Part shown: positions 6,048 to 59,525 of the stretch, piece after piece
How positions within the stretch are numbered: position 1 is the stretch's first letter
How the letters are laid out: every line of letters begins with the position of its first letter
Source of the DNA: Limonium bicolor
Lineage: Eukaryota; Streptophyta; Magnoliopsida; Caryophyllales; Plumbaginaceae
Reading direction: 5' to 3'
Length of the DNA stretch: 64,000 bases
Assembly (NCBI GenBank): GCA_023374045.1
Contig: CM041783.1
Span: 126,605,503 to 126,669,502 of the forward strand
Position numbers and translations under genes: made by a program
The notes under the pieces: model-generated
Databases searched by the model: none
What the model was told of the DNA's origin: nothing
Seen by the model: the letters and a program-made list of their open reading frames with translations, nothing else

Positions 6048-6758
6048 GTTTAAGTAAAAACACTTAGCCTCATTAATATAAAATGCTTAAAGCTCTAAAG
6101 TAGGTGATTACCTTAAAACCCTAAGATGGGGTTTTGGTCAAGAATCAAAGAGCAACTCCCTCCAAGCTTTTGGAATTGAAACAATGCTCACAAAAGAGAA
6201 TAAACAAGGCTCCATTAGAGGCCAAAATCGGCCAAGGTATAAGATGAAGAAAACAAGACTTTTTCATGGATATTTTTACCTTGCTAGAAAGAGGAAGCTT
6301 CAAGCTACAAAATGGTGTGCTTTTCTCTTCAAATGCCCAAAACCGATGGAGGTCAAACTCCTCCATTTGAGATTTCGGAAAGAGGGAATGATAGGGCTTG
6401 AAGAGAGGAAGAAGAGTATGTATTCGGTTTTTCATTTGGAGCTCTAACATGGCTTGAGCTTGGAGAGAAAGAGAGACCTCCATTGTTGTTGTTGTTGCAG
6501 CTCAAAATCGCACAAGGAGGAAGAAGGAGGGGAGCTTACGGATGAGAGAGATGAGGGAGTCAAATTTGAAGAAAGAAAATGAGGAATGAGGAAAGAGAAA
6601 AGTAACTTATTACTTTTACACTTTTTACTATTTGCTTTATCACTCACCACTTAATGAGGAAAGAGGAAAGAGAAATGAGTTTAAGTAAAAACACTTAGCC
6701 TCATTAATTTAAAATGCTTAAAGCTCTAAAGTAGGTGATTACCTTAAAACCCTAAGAT
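6048..6758. repeat. Start of a 631-bp tandem duplication in LTR E
   Basis: Sequence starting GTTTAAGTAAAAACACTTAG at 6048 recurs at 6679. Copy 1 runs to about 6652. Copy 2 runs 6679-6758 and resumes after element D at 58475, ending near 58998. Copy 2 is therefore the one split by D. The junction at 6653-6678 is rich in GAGGAAAGAGGAAAGAG, suggesting slippage or unequal exchange. Confidence 0.8.
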
Positions 6759-6763
6759 GGGGT

Positions 6764-16389: not shown

Positions 16390-16457
16390 CTGAACCAGGG
16401 GTGAGGGGAAGGAAGACACGGCGCCCAGACTTGGGGCTCACATGCCATGTACCTCAC

Positions 16458-17503
16458 AGCCCGGCGTCAGCACGTTCAGGAGATTCTAGCTTCTTCTTTT
16501 TCTTTGAGAGACCGGCTTGGTCATCTCCGACTTCTTTCCTGGAGCGCTTTGCCGGAGGAGCACTCTCCAACAGCTGCTCGGCCGCATCAGTAGCCGCATC
16601 CAGCGTGGCGTAGTAATTGATTTTTCCATCCCCACTCTTGAAGGTGATGAAGTTCCAGCTATGAAAGGGGCCGATCTTGTCCCCCTTCTGGAAGAAATCT
16701 ACATACAACATGTCAAACAATAAGAAGACCGATGGGAAGGACAGAATTTGTACTAAGGGTTGAAGACGCTTACTATGATTTGTCAAAAATGCCTCGACAG
16801 TCGGCGGTTCCTTGCTAAATGCCCTCAGAACCTTCGAAATGGGCAGCTCAGCCGGAGGGGTTTGGGGGCTGATTAGCTGACCTTTGATAACCTCAGCACA
16901 GTATGGGACGCCCAATACTCGGACGGATGGAGGAACAATGACGAACCACCGTGACCCCCACTCGTGAGCCTTCTTGTAGTCGAAGAGGGTGTATCCGGCC
17001 TTCGCGATGAAGGTTAGGCTATCCGGGTCAACCCTAACTATGAAGAATCGGACGAAATCAGTACCCTCCGGCCGGATTTTGCTTCCCTCACAAAGAGAAA
17101 CAAAGGCGTGGAGGTGCGAAATGGCCTTTGGGTGAAGGTGAGCGAGAGTGCAGCAGCGGCGAAGGAAGAAGCCCGGCACAAAAGGGTGCGGGGGAATGGT
17201 CAGACCGGAGCGGAAAAAATCAGCGAAAACTACGTACCCACGGCCAAAGTCGTCGTTAGGGTGAGAGTCGGAGGATGGCAGGAAAATCTGCGTGCCAAGC
17301 GGGGCTTCGACATCCCTGAGACAATCGCAAAGGGAGGAGTAATTGAGAGAGGAAGGAGAAGGTTGACGCCCAGATAGGAAGGGTCTTGTGAACTTCAGGT
17401 ACGAGGGGCGAAAGTCGTTAGAAGAGCGAGAGCCCTGAATTGCCTCGATGACGGGCGGAAATTTGGCAGCGAGTTTACTCTGTTTTGCGGAGGAAGAAGA
17501 CAT
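16458..17503 (-). CDS. Antisense gene of C, head domain (Transposase_28-like)
   Basis: About 349 codons antisense to the element. I chose the ATG at 17503 (MSSSSAKQSK) because the frame upstream opens only at a GTG. Key features: VVFADFFRSGLTIPPHPF, then RRCCTLAHLHPKAISHLHAF and LCEG. This is the F-x-x-G-L-x-x-P-x-x-P-F ... L-x-P-x-x-x-x-x-L-x-x-F signature of the plant 'putative gypsy type transposon' family (Transposase_28). WGSRWFVIVPPS and a C-terminal lysine run, KKKKKLESPE, follow. The frame ends just after a donor-like GTGAGG. The family is named for its association with gypsy elements and has no proven activity. Uninterrupted, unlike the element's own gag. Confidence 0.72.
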
Positions 17504-17668
17504 TGTCAAGCTTAACGAAGGATCAGAGGGCGGCGACGGCAACGAAAGACGAGGTAGCACACGACGACAGGGAGGCGAGAGAAGAAGAACAGTCGAAGCA
17601 AAGGGGCAGTAGAAGAAAGAAGAGGAAGCTCAAAAATCGGGCTTTAAGGAAAGTTTTTTCCCGCTCAA

Positions 17669-39389: not shown

Positions 39390-40880
39390 TGCTAACAGAG
39401 AAATTGTAAGATAAAAATATATACAAAAGAACAAAATAATAAATTAATCCTACAACTCTACTACGGGTAGCAAAATAAAACCCGGTCGGAGTATAGTGTA
39501 AATATATTACGACCGAGAGTATCGTACCCAAGGGACTTATAGAAAATTAGTCCTAATCCGGTAATAACCTATTCTAAGACAAGGGGGGGAAATTGAATGT
39601 AATTCTAAACCTAATTAAAACTAACTAAACTAAGTGGTATTTACAAGGAGATTATTCTTGATCCAGGGTGTGAAACCATCTAAGCATCAATATGAACTCT
39701 CAACATATACACAGGCCTTCGAATTAACCAACAACTGAACACGCCGGGTGTCCTGCCGGATACCACTTGCACGGCATATTCAAAGACATTGAATATTCCG
39801 GACATTGGCCACCCGGCAGTGCATCCGGCATAGTCATAATGCATATTCTTTCTCCAGTTTCCGAGTAGAAAACAGAAGACTCATCCCTATTAACAAATCG
39901 AGCATATATCATGCCGCGAAATGAACAAGGAAATGGGGGAAAATGGATTAATTCTCACTCTTACCACTAACCCTTAATTCATAAGAAGAGAGTAGGAAGA
40001 CCATTAAGAGAGTCTAACCTATCTTACTTGGGACTTGTCTTCCACAAGTAAGAATTGCATGAAGAGAAAAAGAGATCAACCTATTCTCTTTCAATAAGAA
40101 CCTTACTCAAAATAAACTTGAAATTATATTAAGAAGAACACATTATTTTACAAGGAGAGTTTCATTCCCTAACCAAAGAATAAACAAGGATTCCTACTTC
40201 ACCATCCACCCAAATAAAGAAGAAATACATAAGGGAGAAGGAGATTGGTCATAGCCTTAACCCGAAAAGGAAATCTTCTCTTCTTCTTGTGGATGGATCC
40301 GTAGAAATGCCTTGGACACCAACACTTGGAATGTGGGCGGAAATGAAGTAATGAATGAAGTATAGTATGGTGTAGAAGTGTGTTGAATTGTAGCCTTCCT
40401 CGGCCTATTTATAGGCATTAATTGTGTCGATGCCGGGCGTCGTGCCGGGTCCCCAATAGCCGGCACACGTGTTAAATGCGCCCAACTGTTAATGGTCGAA
40501 ACCGTCAATTCCGCGCGAAACAGTGCATATGCCGGGTAGGATATACCCGGCGTCACACCCGGCGTCATCCCTTTCACCAACGGTCAATAACTGCTATCGC
40601 TTGGTCAACCGTGGCGACTTTTCACTTATGCCGGATGGAATCTACCCGGCATTAGGTCCGGCAATGCCTCTTTTCTGTTCTGTACTTATGCCGTGCAGAA
40701 ACTACCCGGCATGGAGTCCGGCTTCAACTGAACTTTTGCCTAGAAAATCCTTCCTTCACAGAAACTCATAAAAAAATCTGCACAATTTATACTTTACACA
40801 TAATAGCATAAATAACTAAATAACTTTTAGATAATATAATACTAAATCTAATGCTAAATATGATAAGTCGCGGCTTATCA
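39390..40880 (-). repeat. 3' LTR of G (1491 bp)
   Basis: TGCTAACAGA...CGGCTTATCA. TATA box CTATAAATAG (minus) at 40405-40414. Dyads of the type ATGCCGG...CCGGCAT occur near 39753-39850 and at 40432-40730, the latter upstream of the TATA box. Its U3 end lacks numerous single bases relative to the other copy (about 40770-40860). Open frames here, such as 40257-40580, are made by the dyads. Confidence 0.93.
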
Positions 40881-40918
40881 AGGCCCTACACTTACCTTTT
40901 GCTAGTCCTCGAGCAAAA
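40881..40918 (-). promoter_or_regulatory. PPT and adjacent hairpin of G
   Basis: Minus strand GGTAAGTGTAGGGCCTT abuts the LTR. Upstream is a hairpin (40897-40918) with arms TTTTGCTCG and CTAGCAAAA, one mismatch, around AGGA. Confidence 0.8.
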
Positions 40919-41931
40919 CAAGATTAGAAAGGACTAATTACTCATCCACAAAACAGATAAACTCTAGAATGAAATTTAGATAAATATTTCCAACTATATG
41001 ACTCTAATTCATAAGTATCACTTAATCTACCTTATCTTGTCAAAACATAGTAATGGGTATAAAACAAGGAATTTCAAAATCGATCAAAAACTTTTGGGCT
41101 ATTTTGCATAAGGGATTTGTAATCTCTCCTTTTTCCAGTTTCCATCATTCAGCTCTATTTTCCAAGGGTTTCTGAATGTGGCCAAGACTCTCATCAATGG
41201 TTTTTATGAATCAGCCCTATTTTGCAAGAGTTTTTGAATCAACCATGATTTTTTTGCATTGAAGAACGGGGAATTTAGGAGAAAAATAAAAGGAAAAACT
41301 CTCGTTTCTTGCTTTTATTCTGAGGCACTTTATGCAACCTCTAGGAATATATTGTTTTTCCTTTGGAAGAAGTTTTTTTTCCTTTTTTTTCTTTTTCTTC
41401 TTCTTTCTTTTGCACAAAAACCCTTTTTAAGATTTTCACCCAAAAGATTTTTCACAATTTGGAAAGAAAAGAATAACATCCATAAGTACATAAAGGACAG
41501 AATTAGGAGAAAGATCATGTACTCATGTTAAACAAAAAGAATCAAAGAGTTAAAAACAGGAATCTATAAGTCATTAGAGAGCTTACCTCTTGAGAGAACA
41601 AGCTTTTAGTCATCTCCTAATCCTATCTCGATCAAAACATGCAAAAAGTTTAGTAAACATTGATAAAACGCAAAACTTATGCATATTGCTAAAAAACTTA
41701 TTTTTTAAAGGGGGGTCCTTGCCCTACACTTGGCAGGAACACTGTCCCTAGTGTTCGAAAGAAAATAAATAAGTAAAACTTTTTTTTTTTTAGAAACTTG
41801 AAACAACTATAATGAAAGTAATTTAATAACATAAAATAAAATTAAAGGAGAAAAATTAAAATTGGAAGAAAGGCTCCCCTGGTTGATAGTGAAGGCGTGA
41901 GGAGGAACCGCCCTACACATAGCCTTTTAGG
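40919..41931 (-). other. Non-coding 3' part of G
   Basis: About 1 kb between gag and PPT where protease-pol would normally begin. AT-rich, with T runs at 41370-41400 and 41780. No gene seen. Confidence 0.55.
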
Positions 41932-43220
41932 CTACTTGGCGTCTTTGGAGATCCTAGGTAGAATGGTGACCGAATTCGCATGCTCCCGTGGATTGGTTTG
42001 CGTTTGGGACGGGAGCTGTCCTTGCTGTCGTGGTTGCATCAGAAGTTGCTGTAACTGCAACTGCAACGATTTGTGCTCCTTGCGAATGGTTGAGATCTCA
42101 TTTTGAGTATCCTGGGTCTTGTTCATCAGGGCTGACATCATGTCACGAAGTTCAGCCATTTCAGCCTCTGATGATGATGCAGGGTGGGATGGTCTGAATT
42201 GCCTTGGACCTCCCTGGTAGCCGGCTTGACTCTGGAAGTGTTGAGGCGGTTGGTTCCCCTGTTGCCATGGCTGCCGATACCCTTGGTTACTCACATAGTT
42301 GACGTCCTCAACATTCTGAAAGTCTAGAATGTCAGGGCTTGGAGCGTGTGGTCGTGCACTAACCACGTTCGCTTGTTGAGGAAGTTTGTTCATTGCTATT
42401 TGCTCCACCACTTTCTGTAGAGCGCTAACCTTCGTTGACGTCAGGGCATTACTCTCCAATAACTGCTCATGACTTTGCATCAATTTGTCGAATTTGGAGT
42501 CGCCCTCTCCCACTTGATATAAACCAGCGGTACTACCCCTGGTTCCACCGGTGGCCCAATCCCTAATCTCTTCGCAAAGAGATTCAACCCCACTAAGGAA
42601 TTGATCTCCAGGCTTTTTCAATATGTCTGCACCAAGGGAAGAAAGGATCATGGTCTTGCATTGGTTGACCAATCCTTTGTAAAACAACTGGGATAGTTGT
42701 TCCTTGGTGAGGCCGTGGTGTGGACATGTGCGCAGCAACCCCTTGAATCTGTCCCAAGTCTCACAGATGTTCTCCGAGCCTGGTTGCCTAAAGTTGTAAA
42801 TATCGGCGATCATCTCCAGGGTGCGACTTGGAGGCATGAACTTGTCATAAAACTTGGTTGCCATGTCCTCCCATGTGGTGATGGTACTGGGGGTTAGACT
42901 GTGGTACCATTTGCTGGCGTTCCCCGTAAGGCTATGGGGAAAGAGGGAAAGTCCAATTCCTTGATGCATCGTATTTGATGATATGTCTTAAGTTTTTGCC
43001 ATTCATCATATTCGTTTTGAGCGAGGAGTGAGAGGTCGATTGCTGGCTTTTGGCCTTGATTGGAAGGCCTATTGATGTTGCGGACGGTAGGTGCTGCCAA
43101 TGGTGTAGGATCTGCTTCTTGTAGGATTCGTTGTTGCCTTAAAGTATGAAGCAAGGTTCTCTCGATCTCCGGATCAAAGTTGGCTAAATTGTCGGGAGTA
43201 CTTGTTGACCGAAGAAGCAT
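41932..43220 (-). pseudogene. gag of G (frameshifted)
   Basis: An Athila-type gag in two frames. The first (43220-42894) starts MLLRSTSTPDN and ends near HQIRCIKEL. The second (42969-41932, 345 codons) shows the Retrotrans_gag core LFPHSLTGNASKWYHSL, TITTWEDMATKFYDKFMPP, NFRQPGSENICETWDRFKGL, CPHHGLTKEQLSQLFYKGL, then a Q-rich tail and a C-terminal coiled coil (IRKEHKSLQLQLQQLL). The frames overlap around 42900-42969, and part of the usual region before LFPHSL seems deleted. No zinc knuckle or protease follows; the frame simply ends at 41932. If translated by frameshifting it could still make a capsid-like protein. Confidence 0.85.
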
Positions 43221-43340
43221 TCACTTGGAAAACTTCAGGAGGAGCAAGAGAAAATGTTATAATATTTCGTAATAATAAAAGAAATAATATAATTACATAA
43301 TTAAAATTATGAAAATACACGAATGAACAAATTTTTGGTT

Positions 43341-43890
43341 ATGCCGGACAGACTGCCGGGTGCTTCTTACCCGGCAGTGGACTTCCTCCACTAATGTCGG
43401 GCCTGTACAAACCGGCATGTTGCCCGGCGTGACCAAAAAATCGACATTAACTTAATTAAAAGACAATGTAAAGGATAATCAAAATAAATGTAAGAGTAAA
43501 TAAGAGATTGAGATCACTCCTAATTGTCCCTCCAATTTACGACAAAAATATTGAGAGAAATTGAGCATGCCGGGTTACATGCCGGATCAAACCTGCCCGG
43601 CATAAGACTTCCTCCGAAAAGCCGGGTATAGGAAATCCGGCATAATACACGGCAAGTTCATTCTCGAAATCTAAATTAAAGAATCATAGTATAGGGACTA
43701 TTAGAAGAGAGAAATAATGAATGGGCGCAAGCAAGAACAAATTTAAATTGCCAAGAACTCAATAATTAAAGAAATTTTGAAAAACTTTGAACATGCCGGA
43801 CACAATGCCGGGTAAAACGTATCCGGCATCAGACTTTTCGAGTTTGCCGGGTGACAGACGCCCGGCACTCCGCACGGCACATTCAAGTCT
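43341..43890. repeat. Three dyad modules in the leader of G, 226 bp apart
   Basis: Modules start ATGCCGG at 43341, 43567 and 43794 (spacings 226 and 227). Each has about 90 bases with the order ATGCCGG, TGCCGGGT or TGCCGGAT, then TCCGGCAT or CCCGGCA(T/G), and a second pair further on. Sequence between modules has diverged strongly. The same module occurs in opposite orientation in the LTR near 39753-39850. Confidence 0.8.
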
Positions 43891-44001
43891 GCAAAACTAA
43901 GGGCGAAAATGAATTAAAGAATCAAAGAATCAAAGGATCAAAGAATCAAAGAATAAGGAATAGGGCGTTTTACCGAATTTAGGACTTGGACTAATTCCAA
44001 G

Positions 44002-44019
44002 TCCCCGGCAACGGCGCTA
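44002..44019 (-). promoter_or_regulatory. tRNA-Asp PBS of G, one mismatch
   Basis: Plus strand TCCCCGGCAACGGCGCTA; tRNA-Asp would end GCGCCA, so one base differs. Three bases separate it from the LTR. Confidence 0.85.
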
Positions 44020-44022
44020 ATT

Positions 44023-45532
44023 TGCTAACAGAGAAATTGTAAGATAAAAATATATACAAAAGAACAAAATAATAAATTAATCCTACAACTCTACTACGGG
44101 TAGCAAAATAAAACCCGGTCGGAGTATAGTGTTAATATATTACGACCGAGAGTATCGTACCCAAGGGACTTATAGAAAATTAGTCCTAATCCGGTAATAA
44201 CCTATTCTAAGACAATGGGGGAAATTGAATGTAATTCTAAACCTAATTAAAACTAACTAAACTAAGTGGTATTTACAAGGAGATTATTCTTGATCCAGGG
44301 TGTGAAACCATCTAAGCATCAATATGAACTCTCAACATAAACACAGGCCTTCGAATTAACCAACAACTGAACACGCCGGGTGTCCTGCCGGATACCACTT
44401 GCACGGCATATTCAAAGACATTGAATATGCCGGACATTGGCCACCCGGCAGTGCATCCGGCATAGTCATAATGCATATTCTTTCTCCAGTTTCCGAGTAG
44501 AAAACAGAAGACTCATCCCTATTAACAAATCGAGCATATATCATGCCGCGAAATGAACAAGGTAATGGGGGAAAATGGATTAATTCTCACTCTTACCACT
44601 AACCCTTAATTCATAAGAAGAGAGTAGGAAGACCATTAAGAGAGTCTAACCTATCTTACTTGGGACTTGTCTTCCACAAGTAAGAATTGCATGAAGAGAA
44701 AAAGAGATCAACCTATTCTCTTTCAATAAGAACCTTACTCAAAATAAACTTGAAATTATATTAAGAAGAACACATTATTTTACAAGGAGAGTTTCATTCC
44801 CTAACCAAAGAATAAACAAGGATTCCTACTTCACCATCCACCCAAATAAAGAAGAAATACATAAGGGAGAAGGAGATTGGTCATAGCCTTAACCCGAAAA
44901 GGAAATCTTCTCTTCTTCTTGTGGATGGATCCGTAGAAATGCCTTGGACACCAACACTTGGAATGTGGGCGGAAATGGAGTAATGAATGAAGTATAGTAT
45001 GGTGTTGAAGTGTGTTGAATTGTAGCCTTCCTCGGCCTATTTATAGGCATTAATTGTGTTGATGCCGGGCGTCGTGCCGGGTCCCCAATAGCCGGCACAC
45101 GTGTTAAATGCGCCCAACTGTTAACGGTCGAAACCGTCAATTCCGCGCTAAACAGTGCATATGCCAGGTAGGATATACCCGGCATCACACCCGGCATCAT
45201 CCCTTTCACCAACGGTCAATAACTGCTATCGCTTGGTCAACCGTGGCGACTTTTCACTTATGCCGGATGGAATCTACCCGGCATTAGGTCCGGCAATGCC
45301 TCTTTTCTGTTCTGTACTTATGCCGTGCAGAAACTACCCGGCATGGAGTCCGGCTTCAACTGAACTTTTGCCTAGAAAATCCTTCCTTGCACAGAAAACT
45401 CATAAAAACATAAATCTGCACAAATATTATACTTTAACACATAATAAGCATAAATAACATAAATATAACTTTATTTAGATAAATATAATACTAAATCTAA
45501 TGCCTAAAATATGATAAGTCTGCGGCTTATCA
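44023..45532 (-). repeat. 5' LTR of G (1510 bp)
   Basis: Partner of 39390-40880. TATA box (minus) at 45037-45046. Confidence 0.93.
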
Positions 45533-45537
45533 AGGGA

Positions 45538-47853
45538 GTATTGGAGTATAAGAGTTAAGGTGAAAATCTGTAGCATAAGAATGAAAACAAAATCTGTAGC
45601 ATTAGTGTGAGGAAACTAGTATAAGTGTTGAAATGAAATGAGGAAAAATGTGTAAGTGAATGTAAGGATTGAGTAGTAAGTTTGGTGGATGGACCAAGAT
45701 GATTTAGAGGGTTTAATTAGTGCTAAATCTTGTGGGGAAGTATTGGTAAAGATTGGGGGCGCAATGGGTAAAGAAAACACCCAAAATCAGATTTTAAAAC
45801 TGAAGTACTGGGCCGGACCGACCTTAGGACCGAACTTGCAAGGTCGGTCGAGCCCAGATTTACAAAGACGGGAAACCTTCTGGAATCGACCGACCTTGCG
45901 ACCGGACTTGCAAGTTCGGTCGGACCAGAAAATTCTCCCGTCAGAAACCTTCTGGAATGGACCGAACTTGCGACCGGACTTGCAAGTTCGGTCGGCCAGA
46001 AAAATTCCCGTAATGCAAGCTACTGGAATGGACCGACCTTGCGACCGGACTTGCAAGGTCGGTCGGGCTAAAATTTTCACATACGAAACTTACTGGAATG
46101 GACCGACCTTGGGACCGGACTTGCAAGGTCGGTCGGCCCTGGAATTTTCACACGATGTAGCTACTGACTTGGACCGAACTTGCGACCGGACTTGCAAGTT
46201 CGGTCGAGTCAAAACAAAAAAAATGTTTTATTATATGATTATAGTATCATATGTATATATATATGCCTATACAAATATAGCATATATATGTAGTAATACA
46301 CCATTAATGAAGTAGTAATGGTAAGAAAGTAAGTAAATGAGTAAGGAACAAATTTAAGAAGTAAAAGGAAAAGAATGGTTTTATAAAGTAAGAATAAGGG
46401 TAGTAAGTATACATTAGGAGTATTAATGGAATAGTAGTTGGATCATTGATCATACACTTCATGTATGTATAGGAATCAATAGTTGAACTCGAAGGAACCG
46501 GTAGTACGATACGACGGTGAACGGTATGATTTCTTCATGCCCTGTATCCTAACTTGGTTACCCCGATTTGTGTGCTTATGTGATCACCAATAAGATAAAT
46601 GCACGAATCGGACTTATTTGCACTTAATGTGTTTGAACTATTTGTTCTTGTTGTATCTTCTTGAACAAAGTTTGTATAATTCATGAAATGTATGAATGAG
46701 AATGAAGTGTATGTGTAAGTATGAGTACTTGTGTATTGTATGATGTATGGAAAGAAGTATGGACTTCTACTAATTCCTAACGATCTAACTCCTAACATGA
46801 GTAATGAGTAAAATGGAATGAGTAGAAGCCCGATATAGTTTCGGCCACGCGTGAGGATAAGGAAACACAAGAGGTTGGATCCGAATCCTGGCTATAATCT
46901 TTTCCTGGACCAATCCCTTGAATGGGTAGCATCCTGGATTAGTGGGCCACCCTAAAGCCCGGTGGTGGGATGTAGTAATCCCTGCCCGGAGGTCATACCG
47001 ACTTAACTGGAAGTAAAGTATGTAAGAAGTAAGTATTGTATTTGTATTGGTCTTGACTATTGTAAGTCATTGACCCGGAGTAAAAGTATTGAACACCCGA
47101 TTAACCCGGGTGTGTAATGAGGCTAACAAGACCTTTGTATGTATTGGAGAATTGTATCTCCGTAATGCGGTGAGTATGGGTAAGTATGAATGGTTGACTT
47201 GAATTGTCTTCCTTGTATGTATTGTATGTATGTATGCTTGTGTATGGAATGTATTGTATTGTATTAAAGCATGTATGTATGTATGAATGAAACGAACCGC
47301 ATGTACTCGACCAATTAGTTGGCGTACCCTCGCTAGCACGCGGGGTATGCGGTTATCATATGCAGCGTAAGCTGACCCCCTAGGGGGAATGTTTTTACTC
47401 CACAGGTACCCGCGAGGCGTGACGGTAGAGTAAGGACGGATGTATTCTTTTTGAGTAGTTAGTAGTTGGATGGTGTACCGAGTTGTACACGGCTAAGGCC
47501 TTTTGAGTAGCCGGTGTACCATGTGGTACACCTTTTTGGATATTGAATTCTTGATTGGATAGTAAGGAGAGGATGTATAAACTCTTCATTTTTGGGAAGT
47601 AGTCTTGGAATGTAATTCATATATTGGTATACTCGGTAATCAAATGTAAGTTAAGTATTTGGTATTGTAAAGTAAGTAGTATGTATTTGGTTTATTCTAA
47701 TCGTCAGACCGAAACGGTAAGTAGTAGTAGCCTTGTTAACCTTGGAGGTTAACGGCGTTGTATCACCCGCCGGGAGTAAGTAAGTATTCCGCTGCGAGTA
47801 AGGTATGGGAATGATTAGAGGATAATGGAAGGATTAGCGGTTGGGGTGTTACA
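45538..47853 (+). repeat. 5' LTR of D, segment 3
   Basis: Matches 56116-58469. Ends GGTTGGGGTGTTACA. Carries the dyad array at 45816-46210, a TATA-like GTATATATATAT at 46250 just downstream of it, and a U5 stem at 47730-47756. Confidence 0.92.
45816..46210. repeat. Dyad array in LTR D: six units, 70-72 bp period
   Basis: Left arms start at 45816, 45888, 45960, 46031, 46101 and 46172. Units have either GACCGACCTT with AAGGTCGGTC or GACCGAACTT with AAGTTCGGTC. Five of six units are perfectly paired, so the central two bases change together; only unit 2 is mixed. The 3' LTR has the matching array at about 56397-56790. The array keeps a 208-codon frame open, which I regard as incidental. Confidence 0.92.
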
Positions 47854-47858
47854 AAAAG

Positions 47859-47886
47859 TGGTATCAGAGCGAAGTCTCGCTCTGAT
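47859..47886 (+). promoter_or_regulatory. tRNA-iMet PBS of D, inside a perfect hairpin
   Basis: TGGTATCAGAGCG at 47859, five bases after the LTR. Bases 47864-47885 form arms TCAGAGCGA and TCGCTCTGA around AGTC, extended by one further A-T pair. Confidence 0.92.
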
Positions 47887-48740: not shown

Positions 48741-48826
48741 GTAAACAAGTTGAACCCTTAAAAGCCATGAGTAATGTGAATTAGTATTCCCGTATGTAAG
48801 TGTAACCTAATGCCTAAGTAATTCAG
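48741..48826 (+). other. Intron 1 in gag of D (86 bp)
   Basis: Donor CTTCAG^GTAAACAAG, acceptor AAGTAATTCAG^GAGTG. The interval has stops. Removal restores TSLQ-ECYHAA in phase 0, a normal gag sequence. Confidence 0.75.
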
Positions 48827-49100
48827 GAGTGTTACCACGCTGCATCTCGAGTGGAGATCACCTGCCAGCTAAGAGATGAGGAGCAAGCGCTGAAGCGCAA
48901 GGTGAGCGGCAAGGGTAACACCTCCGATGACCAAAACCAAGCCAAACCTTGGAAGAAGAAGAAAGGGAAGTATTCCCATTAGAAGAACGCTTCAGGAGAC
49001 GGCGGTGCCCATACTGAGAAGGGCAAGGCACCTGAACCATTGCAGCTTGCTTACACCGCATCAGTGGCAGCGAAGCCACTGAGGTCTCAGCCCTACAAGG

Positions 49101-49193
49101 GTAAGAACCCGAAACCGAATTAGAACACTTGTGAATTTGTATGTATATAGAGTATTGTAAGTATACCGAACCTTGCTAACTTGGAAGCTATAG
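49101..49193 (+). other. Intron 2 in gag of D (93 bp)
   Basis: Donor CAAGG^GTAAGAACC, branch-site-like TTGCTAAC at 49173-49180, acceptor AAGCTATAG^GTTCTGG. Removal gives QPYK-G-SGFGQG in phase 1. Stops in the interval. Confidence 0.8.
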
Positions 49194-49708
49194 GTTCTGG
49201 ATTTGGCCAAGGCAAGAACCAATCTGATGGCCGCAGCTACATATGCCGAAACTGCAACAAGGATCATCCCGGCACAGATTGCCAAGGAAGGGAGATCCGC
49301 TGCTACACTTGCCAGAAGCCGGGGCACCGTGCCAATGCATGCCCAGAAAACTCTAAGCCCAAGGGCAACTACCAGGGCTACAAGCAGCGTGAAGGCAAGG
49401 AGGTTGCATCTGGCGATGCTCATGCCCAGCATGCCTCACAGGGACAGGGATCCCGAGGTCCGCAGAAGGGCGCACCGCAGAGGCAGCCGGCCTTACACAT
49501 CATTGACCGTGACGGGACCGGGACTAAGTCCGGCCCAAGTGATAACTGAAACCTTTAATCCTTGAAGAGCATGACTAAGTATTAAAGTAATTGTATGAAT
49601 GGGAGTATGAATGCGTAAGTACTTGAAGTATGAAATTGAGCATGAGTAAGTAACATGGAAGTATGTATTGAGCATGAAATGAATTAGTAAGCCTAGAACT
49701 CACACTAG

Positions 49709-50460
49709 ATGATTACCACCTTAGGGAAATTCCTTATCTGTTACCCAATACCTTCAAACTCACCTCATGAAGAGACCGACATCGCCAATCACCACTTCAA
49801 CAACGAACAGTGTCAGGTCATCCGCCCAGGTATGATCTTATTAAAAGGATACCTGACACCCGAAGCACAAGTTTCAATCATCCGACGATGCAACGAGTTA
49901 GGAATGGGTCCAGGAGGATTTTATACACCCGAATTCCCCGGTGGAGCTACAATGAAGCTGAAATGATGTGCTTGGGAAAGGATTGGAACCCTTATACCAA
50001 GACATACCAAACACGCGAACAGGAGACGGAGCCAACCTCAATCAATACCCCCGAATTCCAAACGCTTGTCACACAAGCTGTAGAAATCGCACAACAATGT
50101 GAAGATGAACCAATCCCTGCACTTGAAGCAGACCTCTGTATCGTCAACTTCTATGAGAAAGAAGGACGACTTGGCTTACACCAAGACAAGGACGAGACAA
50201 TGGAATCTCTTGAACTAAGAGTGCCCGTAGTGTCTTGGTCCATTGGTGATGACGCCGTATTTTTGTATAGCGAGCAGAAGCGTGTGGACCTCGCAGAGAA
50301 ATTGGTATTGAGATCAGGAGATGTTCTAATCATGGGTGGAAAATCAAGGTTGCTGTATCACGGGATCCAGAAGATCAAGTTGAATACGGCACCACCGGCA
50401 ATAATCAATGCCACACACATGAAACCAGGACGCCTGAACCTTACCTTTAGAAAGTATTAA
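49709..50460 (+). CDS. AlkB/ALKBH1-like 2OG-Fe(II) dioxygenase carried by retrotransposon D
   Basis: A cargo gene on the coding strand of D, between gag and protease. AlkB enzymes oxidatively remove methyl groups from DNA or RNA bases using Fe(II) and 2-oxoglutarate. ATG 49709 begins the first frame, with VIRPGMILLKGYLTPEAQ and GPGGFYTPEFPGGA, a plant ALKBH1-type N-terminus. One base appears lost near 49963; the second frame continues MMCLGKDWNPYTKTY, then CIVNFYEKEGRLGLHQDKDE with the H-x-D iron ligands, VPVVSWSIGDDAVFLYS, GDVLIMGGKSRLLYHGI with the second iron His, and GRLNLTFRKY with the 2OG-binding Arg, ending at 50460. About 250 residues, close to one full catalytic domain, and intronless, which suggests capture from a processed transcript. 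All catalytic residues are kept although neighbouring pol is decayed. The frameshift may be decay or an assembly error. Confidence 0.9.
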
Positions 50461-50530
50461 TCTTGTAGTAGCATGTAATCCAGTAGTAACGTGTATTAGA
50501 GACACAGCATGTATGATGGTTGGTTATTCA

Positions 50531-50536
50531 ATAAAA
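50531..50536 (+). terminator. Polyadenylation-signal-like AATAAA after AlkB
   Basis: AATAAA in TATTCAATAAAAGC, 71 bases after the AlkB stop, in a T- and G-rich context. It could end a separate AlkB transcript, or be a remnant of the captured mRNA's 3' UTR. Confidence 0.4.
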
Positions 50537-50602
50537 GCAGTGTTGGTTATTAAATTCCACTTGCGTTCCACCATCTTTACTTATAATCTCATGAATCAAT
50601 AG

Positions 50603-51180
50603 GTTGTGGACTCGGTACCGAAGGTAACCTGAGTATCCTCACCGAAGAACAAGCCGGCAGAGCGGCACCATTCTAACGGGAACATTCCCAGTAAACGGCA
50701 TCGAAGCCTCAGTATTATTCGACTCCGGCGCCTCTCACACCTTTGTATCGCCATCATTCGCTACAAGGTTGGGGCTAGACGCAGATGAGCTACCAAATTT
50801 CTTGGTTACTCTTCCGTCGAAGGAGCGGGTAAAGTGTACTAAGTATACCACACCGCCACCATTCAAATCAAAGGTGAAGCGTTTCCCATTTCCTTCATTG
50901 AATTCAACGGATTGGGATTCGACTTGATAATTGGAATGAACTGGTTGGAGCGGCACAAGGGACGGATCCTATGCGCCGAGCACCGATTGCTGCTCAAGAG
51001 TCCATCTGGGGTCACTGTTTCATACCGCCAGAGACCAAGAGAGCCTTCAACTACAGTCATCTCCGCTATGGCAATGTACGGGAGCTCAGAAAGGACATGA
51101 AGTGTATTTATGCCATGTGCAAGATCTGGAGAGAGATCCAGAGTTCAGTGATGATGTACAGTAGTCTCAGAATTCCCTGA
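50603..51180 (+). pseudogene. Protease region of D
   Basis: Starts after the acceptor at 50602 with GTEGNLSILTEEQAG, then shifts frame to GTILTGTFPVNGIEAS and the retropepsin active site VLFDSGASHTFVS (about 50709-50748). A further shift near 50830 leads to FPISFIEFNGLGFDLIIGMNWLERHKG, the conserved I-I-G-M-N-W-L segment. At least two one-base shifts break it. Confidence 0.85.
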
Positions 51181-52030
51181 TGTATTCCCAAAGAGCTACC
51201 TGGTATGCCACCACAGAGAGCAGTAGAGTTTGAAATCGACCTTGTACCGGTACTGGTCCCATTGCTAGGGCACCATACCGTATGGCACCAGCAGAAATGA
51301 CAGAGCAAAGAGCAACTACGTGATCTCTCGACAAAGGGTTTATACGCCCGAGCGTATCACCCTGGGGAGCACCGGTCCTCTTCGTGAAGAAGAAGGACGG
51401 TAGTCTCCGCCTCTGCATCGACTACCGCAATTGAATGCGGTCACTGTAAAGAACAAATATCCATTGCCACGCATCGACGACCTGTTCGATCAGTTGAAGG
51501 GAGCTTCGTCTTTTCTAAGATTGATCTCCGATCCGGATATCATCAAATTGCTATCAAAGAGCAAGACATTGAGAAAACAGCATTCCGAACAAGATATGGC
51601 CACTACGAATTCACAGTGATGCCATTCGGTTTGTCTAACGCACCAGCCAAATTCATGGACCTAATGAATCGGTTATTCAGTGATCAGCTGGACACTTCAG
51701 TAGTAGTATTCATCGACATCCTTGTGTATTCGAAGTCAGCAGAAGACATGAAAACCACTTAGAAGAGTACTTGAGACACTGCGCGAGAACCAGCTGTATG
51801 CGAAGTTCTCCAAATGCGAGTTTTGGCTAGATCAGGTATCATTCCTCGGTCATGTCATCTCGAGCGCGGGTATTTCAGTAGATCCATCCAAAATCGAAGC
51901 AGTGCGATCATGGCCTAGACCTAAGACTGTTACCGACATCCGGAGCTTTCTTGGTTTAGCCGGTTATTACCGGAGGTTTGTAAAGGACTTCTCAAAAGTC
52001 GCTAAGCCCATGACGTCATTGATGAAGAAA
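51181..52030 (+). pseudogene. Reverse transcriptase of D, catalytic Asp lost
   Basis: RT of a Tekay-type element in several frames: [45 protein letters not shown] (one-base loss at about 51432), [41 protein letters not shown]. The catalytic box, normally F-I-D-D, reads FIDILVYS at 51709-51732 with one Asp codon missing. [19 protein letters not shown] and [19 protein letters not shown] follow. The loss of an active-site Asp plus frameshifts means this copy cannot make active RT. Confidence 0.88.
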
Positions 52031-52460
52031 GATGCACCGTTTGTATGGACAAGCGAGTGCGAGTATCCTTCCAGAGACTAAAAGACTCATTGACCTCGCG
52101 CCAATTCTCACACTTCCAGAGGGCACAGAGGGATTTGAGGTGTATTGTGATGCATCGGGCAAGGGCATGGGATGCGTACTCATGCAGCATGGCAAGGTAG
52201 TAGCATACGCCTCCCCCAGCTGAAAAAGCATGAGGAGAATTACCCGACACATGATCTAGAGTTAGGAGCCATTGTCTTCGCCTTGAAGATATGGCGACAC
52301 TATCTCTATGGGGTAAGCATCACCATCTACTCCGACCACAAAAGTTTGCAGTATGTATTTACCCAGAAAGAATTGAACTAAGAAGAGGAGGTGGATGGAG
52401 TTCCTATCAGATTACGACATCAACCTCCAGTATAAAGAAGGGAAGGCAAACGTTGTAGCC
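52031..52460 (+). pseudogene. RNase H of D
   Basis: RNase H with [17 protein letters not shown] (first Asp), [20 protein letters not shown] (Glu), [18 protein letters not shown] (Asp) and YKEGKANVVADALSRR (final Asp region). Frames shift at about 52065 and 52220, and a TAA interrupts at 52379. Confidence 0.85.
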
Positions 52461-53471
52461 GACGCCCTGAGTCGTCGAGCACACTCGCTCCATTCGCTAC
52501 TCGCTTCTTCTAGCTTGGTTGACGAGGTGCGAGACGCTCAGTTGAGCGACCCTTACTTCACAGAGATCAGACAGAAAATCACAGATGGTACCTTCGAGAG
52601 CCGAAAGTACGACTTCAAATTGCATGAAGATGGTCTGATCCGATTGAATGGCAGATTATGCGTCCCCCGAAGCAATGCTGAGCTAAGGGATCGCATTCTG
52701 CGAGAGTCACATTGTTCGACACTGCATGTCCATCCGGGAGCCTTTAAAATGTACAAAGACATGAAGAGGTACTTCTGGTGGTCAGGAATGAAATTCGACG
52801 TGACTGAGTATGTTCTGAGGTGTCTCACTTGACAGAAAGTGAAGTTCGAGCACCGAAGACCGGGAGGAATGGTGCAATCCATGCCCATTCCGGAGTGGAA
52901 ATTCCACGATATCTCTATGGATTTTGTTGTTGGACTCCCACCTGCTAGGGGAGGACTCAACATGATCTGGGTAGTAGTCGATCGTCTCACCAAGGTTGCC
53001 TGATTCATACCGATGAAGGACACCTGGAAGGTGGCGAAGCTCGCGGAGCTATTCGACAAAGAGATCATTCGACACCACGGAGTCCCGAAAACCATTGTAT
53101 CTGACCGCGACACCAGATTTCTTTCGAGATACTGGAGAGCAACACGGGAAGCGCTTGGTACTGAGTTGAAGCTTAGCACCGCCTTCCACCCACAGACCGA
53201 CGGTCAGACAGAAAGGACCATCCAGACACTAGAGGACATGCTTAGGGCATGTGCCTTAGACTTTCAGGGGAGCTGGATTGAGAAGCTTCATCTTATCGAG
53301 TTTTAGTATAACAATAGCTATCATGCTTCGATTAAGATGTCGCCGTTCCAAGCTTTGTATGGTAGACCTTGCCGTACCCCATTGTGTTAGGATGAGTCAA
53401 GCGAAGCGGTCATCATAGGACCGGAGTATCTGGAACAAGTACAAGCTGAGGTACAACAAATCCGAGCAAAT
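52461..53471 (+). pseudogene. Integrase core of D
   Basis: Zinc-binding domain with ESHCSTLHVHPGAFKMYKD and a damaged CxxC (CLT-stop-QK at 52830). The catalytic core has [13 protein letters not shown] (Asp), TIVSDRDTRFLSRYW (Asp) and FHPQTDGQTERTIQTLEDML (Glu), so DDE residues persist. In-frame stops occur at 52830, about 53002, 53304 and 53388; some replace Trp codons, consistent with G-to-A decay. The core is otherwise long and well preserved. Confidence 0.88.
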
Positions 53472-53960
53472 ATGAAGGCAGCCCAAGATAGACAGAAATC
53501 CTATGCGGATGTGCGACGACGCGACCTTGAGTTCGCCGTGGGTGACCAAGTGTTCTTGCGTGTCTCACCTATGAAGGGTGTCTTTCGATTTTGCCAAAAG
53601 GGCAAGCTGAGCCCGAAATTTGTAGGCCCATATACCATTACCGAGAGGATTGGAGCCGTAGCTTATAGGCAAGCATTGCCTGAAGAATTGGGGAGTGTTC
53701 ATGATGTCTTTCATGTATCACAACTCAAGAAATACATAGCCTATCCCTCTCATGTATTAGAACCCGAACACTTATCCCTAGAGCCGACGATGAGATATGT
53801 CAAGACTCCATTGCGAATCCTTGATACAAAGACAAGAGACACTCGCCATAAATCGGTACGAATGGTGAAGGTCTTGTGGTCCAACCACGATGTCGAGGAA
53901 GCGACTTGGGAACTAGAAGACGCCATGAAGGCGAAGTACCCGAATCTATTTGTAGACTAG
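53472..53960 (+). CDS. Integrase C-terminus and chromodomain of D
   Basis: A clean 162-codon frame, formerly part of pol. It contains KSYADVRRRDLEFAVGDQVFL, GKLSPKFVGPYTITERIG and VFHVSQLKKYI, the GPY/F module of integrase, then the chromodomain: PLRILDTKTRDTR, VKVLWSNHDVEEATWELED, YPNLF. Chromodomains of this type direct integration toward particular chromatin and define chromoviruses. The ATG at 53472 is an internal Met of the polyprotein, not a true start. Confidence 0.9.
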   Translation: MKAAQDRQKSYADVRRRDLEFAVGDQVFLRVSPMKGVFRFCQKGKLSPKFVGPYTITERIGAVAYRQALPEELGSVHDVFHVSQLKKYIAYPSHVLEPEHLSLEPTMRYVKTPLRILDTKTRDTRHKSVRMVKVLWSNHDVEEATWELEDAMKAKYPNLFVD

Positions 53961-54442: not shown

Positions 54443-54477
54443 AACTTTGAGGGCAAAGTTCCTTAAGGGGGGTAGAT
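54443..54477 (+). promoter_or_regulatory. PPT and adjacent hairpin of D
   Basis: Hairpin 54443-54460 with arms AACTTTG and CAAAGTT around AGGG, followed by AAGGGGGGTAGAT and the LTR start TGAAATACCCC. Confidence 0.9.
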
Positions 54478-57400
54478 TGAAATACCCCGTAATTAAAACA
54501 GTGATTAATTAGGCTAATTATATTTTAAAGGCTTAATTACACTTAAATAAATATGAGGGAACAAATCCCGAAGAAAACGGACCCTTAAAATGGGTTAAAA
54601 GCATAAACGAACCTTAATGCGCGTTTTTCGAGGAAACCGGGAAAACGTGACTTTAAGCTGGTCAAATAGACTCGTAACAGTTTTGGTCAACTAAATAATC
54701 ATTAATAAATATTAGTGAAGCTTTAGAACCAAGTAAATTAATTAAACGAGAAAATTCCGGAAAACGGGTACCGGTTAGTAAGAACTGTAACAACCGGGAA
54801 GTTGTGGGGTGAGAGAGTAAATAAACAAAGTTAGTGTGTCCACTTTGCAAATAAAAATAAAAATGTGAGTGTGTGTGCATATGTGGGCCGGCCAGCTCCC
54901 CCCCCTTCCTCACTCACTTAATGTCTCTTATTTGCTAAAGGACAAAGAAATAAGTAAAAGCAAAAATAAATTCTCTCTCCTATCCCCACTCCTCTCTCTC
55001 ACGTTTTTTTCCATCCTCTCTATTCTCTCTTCTTCCTCCTTGGGCGATGGCAATGGAGAAGTGAAGCCCCCTATCAACTCATCACTTCTCTCCTCTCTTT
55101 GAGTACTCAAACCTTCTCCAAACCCAATAAAAATTACACCATTGGAATCCCCTTGCAAAGGAGAACATTTTCCTCCTTTCAAAAATCCAAAAGCTCAAGT
55201 TTCGTTTTTATGGGTATTCTCCATTTGAAGATTCAAGTCCACCATTAGAAGCACCTTCACCTCCTTATCATCTTGAGGTAAAAAGAAATTCGAAAATCCA
55301 TCATTTCTAGCCCTTGTTTGCATTATAAGAATTTCCATGTTTTGAACTCTTGGCCCTCCTTGTTCCAGCCGATTTTGGCTCTCTTGTTGGGCTAGGAATC
55401 TTGTTCTCTTGCTAGTCAAGAACTCCATTCATCCATTGGAAGGTAATACTCTTGTCTAAACCCTAAAACACCTAAATTCTAGGGTTAGTATAAAATGCAT
55501 GCTAAGTGTTTGTGTGTATTGGTATGGGTTGCTGTAGCGTTGCCCATTCCTTGATTAAAACCTAGAACAAGAAGAAGGAAAGAGGAAGAGGAAAGGAAAG
55601 AAAGAAAAACTAACAAGACAAGGTAAATACCCTTACCTTGAGTTAGTTATGTATATTGTGTTGTAACAGTTTTTGAGTATCAAAAACAAGTAATGTGTGT
55701 GATAATGAGTAATGAGTATGTTGGAGTATAATTGGAAAGGCAATGTGACAGTTTTGAAGTTTTTAAAAGATGTTTAAAAGCTTGGGAAAAACAGTGGGTA
55801 GTATGTGTATATGTCCAGGAATTTTAATGTGTGTAGTGGAGTTGAATTGTGTGTATAGTGTATTGTATAAACAGGTTGTGAGAATGTGAAATTGTGAGCT
55901 GAAATAGTATGTGAGAAAAGTAAGAAATATAGGTTAGACTATGTCAAATTCTATCTAGGAATTTGAGGACTTAGGTACATTTGGAACAGATTTTGGAGAG
56001 TTTAAAATGAGTGGTTTTGTAGTTTGAAACAGATTTGAAAATGAGTTTGTAAGTGGGATGGAGTTAGGATGTGAACTAGTGTATTTAAGATGCCAAGAGT
56101 GACATTAGTTGAGGGAGTATTGGAGTAGAAGAGTTAAGGTGAAAATCTGTAGCATAAGAAGGAAAACAAAATCTGTAGCATTAGTGTGAGGAAACTAGTA
56201 TAAGTGTTGAAATGAAATGAGGAAAAATGTGTAAGAGAATGTAAGGATTGAGTAGTAAGTTTGGTGGATGTACCAAGATGATTTAGAGGGTTTAATTAGT
56301 GCTAAATCTCGTGGGGAAGTATTGGTAAAGATTAAGGAAGCAATGGGTAAAGAAAACACCCAAAAACAGATTTTAAAACTGAAGTACTGGGCCGGACCGA
56401 CCTTAGGACCGAACTTGCAAGGTCGGTCGAGCCCAGATTTACAAAGACGGGAATCCTTCTGGAATCAACCGACCTTGCGACCGGACTTGCAAGTTCGGTC
56501 GGACCAGAAAATTCTCCCGTCAGAAACCTTCTGGAATGGACCGAACTTGCGACCGGACTTGCAAGTTTGGTCGGCCAGAAAAATTCCCGTAATGCAAGCT
56601 ACTGGAATGGACCGACCTTGCGACTGGACTTGCAAGGTCTGTCGGGCTAAAATTTTCACATACGAAACTTACTGGAATGGACCGACCTTGGGACCGGACT
56701 TGCAAGGTCGGTCGGCCCTGGAATTTTCACACGATGTAGCTTACTGACTTGGACCGAACTTGCGATCGGACTTGCAAGTTCGGTCGAGTCAAAAAAAAAA
56801 GTTTTATTATATGATTATAATTATCTTATGTATATATATATGCCTATACAAATATAAGCATATATATGTAGTAATACACCATTAATGAAGTAATAATGGT
56901 AAAAGGTAAATAGATGAGTAAGGCAACAAATTTAAGAAGTAATAAGGAAAAGAATGGTTTTATAATAAAGTATGAATGTAAAGGAGTAGTAAGTATACAT
57001 TAGGAGTATTAATGGAAGAGTAAGTTGGATCATTGATCATACAACTTCATGTATGTATAGGATCAAATAGTTGAACATCGAAGGAACCGGTAGTACGAGT
57101 ATGACGGTGAACGGTATGATTTCTTCATGCCCTGTATCCTAACTTGGTTACCCCGATTTGTGTGCTTATGTGATCACCAATAAGATTAATGCATGAATCG
57201 GACTTTTACTGCACTTAATTGTGTTTGAACTATATTGTTCTTGTTGTATCTTCTTGAACAAATAGTTTGTATAATTCATGAAATATGAATGAGAATGAAG
57301 TGTATATGTAAGTATGAGTACTTGCGGATTGTATTGATGTATGGAAAGAAAGTATGGACTTCTACTAATTCCTAACGATCTAACTCCTAACATGAGTAAT

Positions 57401-58469
57401 GAGTAAAATGGAATGAGTAGAAGCCCGATATAGTTTCGGCCACGCGTGAGGATAAGGAAACACAAGAGGTTGGATCCGAATCCTGGCTATAATCTTTTCC
57501 TTGGACCAATCCCCTTGAATGGGTAGCATCCTGGATTAGTGGGCCACCCTAAAGCCCGGTGGTGGGATGTAGTAATCCCTGCCCGGAGGTCATACCGACT
57601 TAACTGGAAGAAAAGTATGTAAGAAGTAAGTATTGTATTTGTATTGGTCTTGACTATTGTAAGTCATTGACCCGGAGTAAAAGAGTATTGAACACCCGAT
57701 TAACCCGGGTGTGTAATGAGGCTAACAAGACCTTTGTATGTATTGGAGAATTGTATCTCCGTAATGCGGTGAGTATGGGTAAGTATGAATGGTTGACTTG
57801 AATTGTCTTCCTTGTATGTATTGTATGTATGTATGCCTTGTGTATGGAATATATTGTATTGTATTGTATAAAGCATGTATGTATGTATGAATGAAACAAA
57901 CCGCATGTACTCGACCAATTAGTTGGTGTACCCTCGCTAGCACGCGGGGTATGCGGTTATCATATGCAGCGTATGCTGACCCCCTAGGGGGAATGTTTTT
58001 ATTCTACAGGTACCCGCGAGGCGTGACGGTAGAGTAGGGACAGGATGTAATTCTTTTTGAAGTAGTTAGTAGGTTTGGATGGTGTACCGAGTTGTACACG
58101 GCTAAGGCCATTTTGAGTAGCCGGTGTACCATGTGGTACACCTTTTTGGATAGTGAATTCTTGATTGGATAGTAAGGAGAGGATGTATAAACTCTTCATT
58201 TTTGGGAAGTATTCTTGGAATGTAATTTATATATTCGGTATACTCGGTAATCAATTGTAAGTTAAGTATTTGGTATTGTAAAGTAAGTAGTATGTATTTG
58301 GTTTATTCTAATTGTCAGACCGAAACGGTAAGTAGTAGTAGCCTTGTTAACCTTGGAAGGTTAACGGCGTTGTATCACCCGCCGGGAGTAAGTAAGTATT
58401 CCGCTACGAGTAAGGTATTTATGGGAATGATTAGAGGATAATGGAAGGATTAGCGGTTGGGGTGTTACA
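54478..58469 (+). repeat. 3' LTR of D (3992 bp)
   Basis: Uninterrupted partner of the split 5' LTR. TGAAATACCCC...GGGGTGTTACA. Includes the dyad array (about 56397-56790), where some arms have decayed by single substitutions. Followed by TSD GGGGT. Confidence 0.95.
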
Positions 58470-58474
58470 GGGGT

Positions 58475-59525
58475 TTTGGTCAAGAATCAAAGAGCAACTC
58501 CCTCCAAGCTTTTGGAATTGAAACAATGCTCACAAAAGAGAATAAACAAGGCTCCATTAGAGGCCAAAATCGGCCAAGGTATAAGATGAAGAAAACAAGA
58601 CTTTTTCATGGATATTTTTACCTTGCTAGAAAGAGGAAGCTTCAAGCTACAAAATGGTGTGCTTTTCTCTTCAAATTCCCAAAACCCATGGAGGTCAAAC
58701 TCCTCCATTTGAGATTTCGGAAAGAGGGAATGATAGGGCTTGAAGAGAGGAAGAAGAGTATGTATTCGGCTTTTCATTTGGAGCTCTAACATGGCTTGAG
58801 CTTGGAGAGAAAGAGAGACCTCCATTGTTGTTGTTGTCGTTGCAGCTCAAAATCTCTCAAGGATGAAGGAGGAGGGGAGCTTACGGATGAGAGAGATGAG
58901 GGAGTCAAATGAGAAGAAAGAAAATGAGGAAAGAGGAAAGAGAAAAATAACTTATTACTTTTACACTTTTTACTATTTACTTTATGACTCACCACTTAAT
59001 TAGCTAGGATATAGTGTGAGAGAGAGCTAATTCATGCTCTAAAATCGGCCCACTTAAGAAATATAGGCTGAGAGCGTTTTTGACTTTTACAGAAAACGCT
59101 CGTTAATTCACCTGGTTTGGCACTATTCACTAACCGGGCCCGTTTTTCGTATTTATAGTTATTTAATCAACTATAATTATTTACGGGTCCGTTTGACCAC
59201 TTAAAGTCACGTTTTCGGGTTTTCTCGAAAAACACGCTTTAAAACTCCGTTAGCGTTTTAATCCATTATTTGGATCCGTTTTCTTCGGGAATCATTCCCG
59301 TATACTAATTAGGCCTAACTAAGCCTTAGGAATCCATCTCGGACCCTCTCGAGATCATATATCTCTTATACTCATTTAACGCGCATTTTAGCGTTTTTCG
59401 CTTTTCAAGCGTTTTCTCTTATCTTTTGGTTTTATTTTCTTTACCGATACTCTTTAGGCACCATTAGGCCTTTAATAATCATATTAGAGTAATTTAATCG
59501 CCATTTTTAGTTCCGGGCTATTAAA
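58475..59525 (-). repeat. LTR of element E, right segment
   Basis: Continues from 6758. 58475-58998 is the rest of duplication copy 2 and matches 6132-6652. 59000-59525 ends at the PPT. Its end (CTTAAAGTCACGTTTTC, CTCGAAAAACACGCTTTAAA) matches in reverse complement the start region of LTR D near 6870-6930. The last bases read CTATTAAA rather than ending in CA, so the terminus is mutated. Confidence 0.7.

Follow-up and report, generated by a model that had tools for sequence, protein, structure and literature searches.

We describe an AlkB gene that is carried by a long terminal repeat (LTR) retrotransposon of the plant Limonium bicolor. The DNA analysed is a stretch of 64,000 nucleotides (GenBank assembly GCA_023374045.1, contig CM041783.1, positions 126,605,503 to 126,669,502 of the forward strand; here called the window), and the frame at 49709-50460 on its plus strand is an AlkB domain of the ALKBH1 type within an element that we call D. 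We suggest that a group of Ty3/gypsy families carries AlkB as a fixed component under selection and that alternative splicing, as predicted from conserved sites, would yield either a Gag-AlkB or a Gag-Pol product in them. We put the probability of this reading at about 0.7. The carrier families are probably chromoviruses.

A preliminary description of the window, made from the letters alone, had proposed an AlkB frame with one frameshift between the gag zinc knuckle and the protease, and it was right on each point. The C-terminal piece of the frame (49945-50457) matches PF13532 with an E-value of 1.5e-36 and 126.9 bits against a curated cut-off of 31.2, its place is confirmed by matches to PF00098 (zinc knuckle) and PF08284 (protease), and a single frameshift lies within the AlkB of D, near 49,960. 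In sequence searches, the best solved relative of this piece is chain 5xeg, by its entry title OsALKBH1 from rice (7.6e-45). The same piece matches E. coli AlkB at 1e-19, the match to animal ALKBH1 is weaker (about 1e-11), and ALKBH5 is absent among the 25 sequence matches listed. The ALKBH1-like type named earlier therefore holds in the sense that plant ALKBH1 is the closest among the solved AlkB proteins compared. P0001, a database protein of the same group, has a predicted fold with a predicted local distance difference test score of 96.4 and OsALKBH1 as its top match; Foldseek with this model places 5xeg first and ALKBH5 far lower.

The HxD...H iron ligands and the two 2-oxoglutarate arginines, a motif that we take as given in PMC9289625, are present in the alignment of D, as the preliminary description had read them, and every one of the 27 columns without variation among the other sequences of the alignment is retained in D. 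We infer that the protein would act as a demethylase. In a neutral simulation with 20% amino-acid change, 0 of 400 runs ended with an open frame and all 27 invariant residues. The simulation alone cannot place this constraint in the element as opposed to before capture, which is addressed by comparing copies through the ratio of nonsynonymous to synonymous substitution rates (dN/dS).

Copies, divergence and selection

Across the 2,686 contigs (2.92 Gb) of the host genome, an AlkB active-site pattern has 16,787 exact matches (8,505 + 8,282), and the reversed pattern used as a control has 0; the active-site pattern leaves out one group of copies, group C, which has M for L in the motif, and not every match was inspected. 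Thousands of retrotransposon copies probably carry the gene. With the PF13532 profile, the best 150 of 38,325 first-look candidates were scored, and 149 of them are without a stop. A DNA search with the AlkB of D, in which the best 40 of 3,084 were scored, returned D and 39 others at 95-98%. With a host-type protein (P0017) as the query, the best 136 of 46,816 were scored; these have 51-58% identity and open frames of mostly ~252 amino acids, and by our own row count 125 of these 136 best-scoring places have an open frame. The host's own ALKBH1 gene was not recognised among the 136, and all eight places fetched are element copies. Some AlkB matches also follow one another in rows of 3-4, about 10.1-10.6 kb apart, which would fit whole elements in tandem (G000:C1, about 1430337-1461714, 4328133-4348960 and 7387137-7418973; C1:497439466-497469727).

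We read 46 copies, D included, with 1.5-kb flanks. All 46 show AlkB, 43 show gag, 45 protease and 43 reverse transcriptase (RT); gag and protease occur together in 42. The recurrence of AlkB at the same site in other copies, on which the preliminary description had made its claim depend, is thus borne out by 45 other loci. By sequence, the copies form groups A (30, with D), B1 (6), B2 (2), C (5) and E (3). The control was a set of 20 protease loci, the best-scoring among 150 listed, and none of them has AlkB within 1.5 kb; gag is present in 19 of these 20, RT in 19 and both in 18.

Across the groups, the divergence of AlkB keeps pace with that of gag and protease, as judged by the identities of gag, the C-terminal part of AlkB and the C-terminal part of protease, which are 60/70/75% for A-B, 63/74/70% for C-E and 41/57/57% for A-C. 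In a tree of gag, protease and RT segments, for which 14 of the 46 carriers and 8 of the 20 AlkB-less loci were used, a branch supported at 100/100 separates the AlkB carriers from the other loci. A is there the neighbour of B1 (99/97), and C that of E (87/90). The AlkB tree also unites A with B1 (98/94), and it groups C and E with the database proteins P0002 and P0006 (86/92). The 24 host-type proteins, of which only P0007 lacks a named or annotated source, fall into a single clade (100/100) that excludes both the element proteins and P0001-P0006, six proteins encoded on ENA or Logan contigs. P0002 also has the 40-residue leader of D, with a score of 71 against 40 for the best of 200 shuffles; the runner-up among the 140 database proteins compared, P0037, reaches 39, where its best shuffle has 35. 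Because of the placement of P0001-P0006 and the D-like leader of P0002, relatives of the element AlkB probably exist in other plants. The preliminary description had D itself capturing a host gene. An ALKBH1-type gene on an LTR element stands, but the capture is not that of D, since it predates the split of several families.

For dN/dS we used the 32 of 46 copies that passed an open-frame test (20 A, 4 B1, 5 C and 3 E). For AlkB, the A-B comparison gives a ratio of 0.18 (dS 1.12), and within groups it is 0.20 for B, 0.17 for C, 0.16 for E and 0.36 for A; between C and E it is 0.08, with 2 of 15 pairs finite. These values are well below 1, as function would have it in the preliminary description. 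Among the A copies, the mean difference is 1.2, 1.3 and 2.1% at the first, second and third codon position, and 5.6% and 0.7% in the two spacers on either side of AlkB; the spacer after AlkB is no more diverged than the gene. AlkB is, on these codon comparisons, under purifying selection in these families.

Splice sites and competing explanations

The layout around AlkB in D, all on the plus strand, appears to include introns. Gag exon 1 (PF03732, 48074-48740; its 5' half is frameshifted in D), exon 2 (48827-49100) and exon 3 with the zinc knuckle (49194-49538) are separated by two putative GT-AG introns of 86 nt (48741-48826) and 93 nt (49101-49193). A phase-1 donor ends exon 3, and a putative intron (49539-49724) leads to an acceptor AG at 49723-49724, immediately before the codons for GxFxIC. 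Because of this conserved acceptor, we set the start of the AlkB coding exon at 49725; it would be an alternative terminal exon that runs to 50460 with its own stop codon (50458-50460). A spacer with AATAAA (50461-50602) ends in a distal acceptor AG (50601-50602), and the pol region follows (50603-53960).

These sites are conserved across the copies. In the printed copies of each group, the exon 3 donor interrupts a codon behind its first base; the donor region is recognisable in 43 of 44 loci, and AG/GT or GGT is preserved in 42. The acceptor AG directly before the GxFxIC codons, in matching phase, is present in all 44 anchored loci of the 46. Of 32 loci with a protease anchor, 26 have the distal acceptor at codon -23 before it, in the same phase, and in the remaining 6 the frame is closed before that position; in group C the protease anchor was not found, and the distal acceptor is present by eye in the copy L048. 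For gag intron 1, a CAG/GT donor stands 74-95 nt upstream in 39 of 39 anchored A, B and C loci, with the acceptor AG in 38; stops close its frame in 37 of the 39, and it is open in two B2 loci. All three E loci lack this intron, at the same codon, and have a continuous frame. The putative gag intron 1 would be a presence/absence difference between retrotransposon families. A further intron-like stretch lies near the start of the protease region in group C (L048:2380-2450).

We propose that a common ancestor of the families captured an ALKBH1-like coding sequence between gag and protease, within an intron-like interval. The one phase-1 donor at the end of gag, joined to the near acceptor, would give Gag-AlkB, terminating at the stop of AlkB itself; joined to the far acceptor, it would skip AlkB and connect Gag to protease-pol as Gag-Pol. 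The fusion may bring the demethylase into the particle together with the packaged RNA, where methyl groups could be removed from this RNA, from the transfer RNA (tRNA) primer or from single-stranded complementary DNA. The benefit may be easier copying or escape from control of the N6-methyladenosine (m6A) type. In Arabidopsis, RNA of the retroelement ONSEN is kept in stress granules by m6A until ALKBH9B removes it (PMC12786077). The fullest version supposes a demethylase tethered to Gag through alternative splicing, a single capture that preceded the split of the families, retention by selection and packaging with the RNA, with the tRNA-Met primer or the packaged RNA as a possible substrate. 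We offer it tentatively and consider it unlikely as a whole. Human ALKBH1 is reported to demethylate N1-methyladenosine at position 58 (m1A58) of initiator tRNA-Met. Since D has a primer site of the tRNA-Met type, the type of the enzyme would match the type of the primer.

Several observations weigh against our reading. The copies were chosen by best score or by nearness to D, so intact ones are over-represented, as are, within A, copies close to D. Short RT segments depart from the in-step pattern (A-B 84%, B-C 86%, B-E 88%), and synonymous sites are saturated for A-C, A-E, B-C and B-E. The best AlkB tree splits the element proteins into two groups around the host clade; a single clade of element AlkB proteins is not rejected (approximately unbiased test, p 0.339) and not proved. 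D's own donor is AA/GT, unlike the AG/GT of group A. No joined gag/pol-AlkB protein is among the 20 matches listed for a query region (221 of 925 residues, X-padded) that spanned AlkB only partly, a negative that carries little weight. Lastly, 13 of the 29 anchored copies of A, and 1 of the 3 of E, have an in-frame ATG just upstream of GxFxIC, which permits a separate start.

Such a start would make AlkB a separate protein, translated from its own ATG on unspliced or subgenomic RNA and free in the cell to act on host or element RNA. The enzyme of an orchid retrotransposon, discussed below, is a separate open reading frame (ORF), ORF2 (PMC9289625), which fits this alternative. However, only 14 of 44 anchored loci have the ATG, and 0 of 12 anchored B and C copies do, yet the stretch before the first Met (GxFxIC) is conserved, and the phase-matched acceptor is there in 44 of 44. 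We judge a separate start unlikely.

Another explanation is that the AlkB exon serves mainly as a switch of splicing or early termination that lowers Gag-Pol relative to Gag, the enzyme being secondary. AlkB has its own stop, followed by AATAAA in the A and B1 copies printed, not in those of B2, C and E, and this signal with the splice layout recalls the short, spliced, early-ended GAG RNA of Ty1/copia elements (PMC8892269). The catalytic residues would be needless for a switch, yet they are kept under selection, and we find this explanation improbable. That AlkB is passive cargo, a captured gene that brings the element no benefit, is very improbable. Plant LTR elements do capture pieces of host genes (PMC7264820), but passive cargo is hard to reconcile with dN/dS values of 0.16-0.36, with the preservation of the invariant columns even in the damaged copy D, or with the retention of AlkB through several family splits. 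An ALKBH1 processed pseudogene that landed in this one copy of D, which the broken frame and a 9-nt repeat (AAGTATTAA at 49577 and 50452) might suggest, is refuted by the 45 other loci, all with this gene at the corresponding site. The repeat overlaps the AlkB stop codon, and around the AlkB of D we saw no poly(A) and no convincing flanking target-site duplication, the latter being the mark of a separate processed pseudogene in the preliminary description.

Relation to known systems

The preliminary description knew of no described Tekay element with this cargo, which is not new in kind. An AlkB-carrying Ty3/gypsy family has been published from Phalaenopsis (Gypsy_Pa_2799), where ORF2 encodes a paALKBH5-like protein of 565 amino acids with m6A activity in vitro; this family is sister to Ogre within Tat and uses a tRNA-Arg primer (PMC9289625). 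According to the text of that study, 121 angiosperm genomes were screened, and consensus sequences of no species but Phalaenopsis have an AlkB domain (PMC9289625). The negative result of the screen applies to that set of genomes. In our search of the open-access literature, the Phalaenopsis family was the only AlkB-bearing LTR element found.

Both the orchid family and the D group are plant Ty3/gypsy elements with an AlkB-family domain in many copies and with the iron and 2-oxoglutarate residues kept. They differ in that the AlkB of the D group is of the ALKBH1 type, lies between gag and protease and is apparently spliced to gag, and in that D has a tRNA-Met-type primer site and a weak chromodomain match. 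D has no tRNA-Arg primer site, and it does not show the orchid arrangement in which an ALKBH5-like ORF2 stands separate from a single gag-pol ORF. The D group is thus a second type of AlkB-carrying plant element, with another enzyme class, another position and another likely mode of expression, and it probably belongs to another Ty3/gypsy lineage. The probably different lineage suggests that AlkB was acquired independently of the orchid case. This points to nucleic acid demethylation as a recurring need of plant retroelements. The predicted Gag-AlkB fusion would allow the site of action of such an enzyme to be tested directly, and the number of active-site matches in this one genome raises the question of an effect on host methylation.

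Plant ALKBH1 (OsALKBH1, PDB codes: 5xeg and 5xoi) shares the fold and the residues with the element proteins, and FDIC is conserved near the start of several host proteins. Unlike it, the element proteins stand outside the clade of host-type proteins, have a shorter linker and their own leader, and are encoded on a transposable element. AlkB domains also occur in plant RNA viruses of the Alphaflexiviridae, Betaflexiviridae and Closteroviridae (cited in PMC9289625), which are, by description only, likewise RNA-based replicators with AlkB. Viral contigs gave two weak 29-residue matches. Three IMG/VR contigs (L003, L004 and L005) encode AlkB relatives at 33-37% identity. A search with a gag piece gave 41 candidates, none of which was scored (length window about 143-455 amino acids).

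Partial splicing sets the gag and pol products in other elements as well, namely through the gag-pol intron of Ogre (PMC6317226) and the short GAG of Ty1/copia (PMC8892269), though as described there without an enzyme exon behind an alternative acceptor. Additional 5' ORFs are found in sunflower Tekay elements (PMC11728184), which are chromoviruses, but these lie before gag-pol, are mostly disordered, and are presented in that source without mention of AlkB.

Structure and condition of element D

Element D spans about 6764-58469 on the plus strand, as delimited by its LTR blocks, flanks and target duplications. The start of its 5' LTR is slightly shortened, and the duplication GGGGT flanks the element at 6759-6763 and 58470-58474. 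The LTRs are ~4 kb long. The 3' LTR (54478-58469, plus strand, 3,992 bp) runs from TGAAATACCCC to GGGGTGTTACA, and the 5' LTR is split into three blocks by two later, nested insertions at 7446-38435 (target duplication GAGAA) and 39390-45532 (AGGGA). A ~71 bp minisatellite is present in both LTRs (45815-46206 and 56394-56786). The polypurine tract AAGGGGGGTAGA is at 54465-54476 on the plus strand.

After the 5' LTR stands a primer binding site, TGGTATCAGAGC (47859-47870, plus strand; read in D only), whose letters we take to be a tRNA-Met match. Most chromoviruses use a tRNA-Met primer and plant non-chromoviruses do not (PMC6317226), and the site in D is of the chromovirus kind. The pol region holds protease (PF08284), RT (PF00078), an integrase zinc-binding domain (PF17921), an SH3-like domain (PF24626) and a weak chromodomain match (about 53814-53945). 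The latter scores 20.7 bits in D, 21.4 in B and 19.9 in C, each below the cut-off of 25.1 and each at the expected place; it was not found in the group E pieces scanned.

The frameshift in AlkB is not the only one in D: more lie in the 5' part of gag and in pol, where there are several. In the LTR block at 45533-47853, 28 runs of bases are missing, whereas its partner lacks 3; the 28 short deletions cluster at 46161-47803. The youngest LTR pair in the window has 5 substitutions against 19 gaps, 6 of which are in runs of at least three equal bases. An unpolished assembly is a likely, not proven, source of many of these small gaps and frameshifts in D, because decay alone should strike both LTR copies equally. 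The LTRs of D differ by a Kimura two-parameter distance of 0.024; at a plant substitution rate of 1.3e-8 per site per year, D was inserted about 1 million years ago.

D seems to lie inside one unit of a local tandem target duplication (6128-6655 and 58470-59000). Elsewhere in the window, an ORF with a plant mobile domain (PF10536) and a Transposase_28-like ORF (PF04195, just under the cut-off) are found on the minus strand, at 80-1294 and 16454-17629. Such domains are described as extra ORFs of Ogre and Retand elements (PMC6317226).
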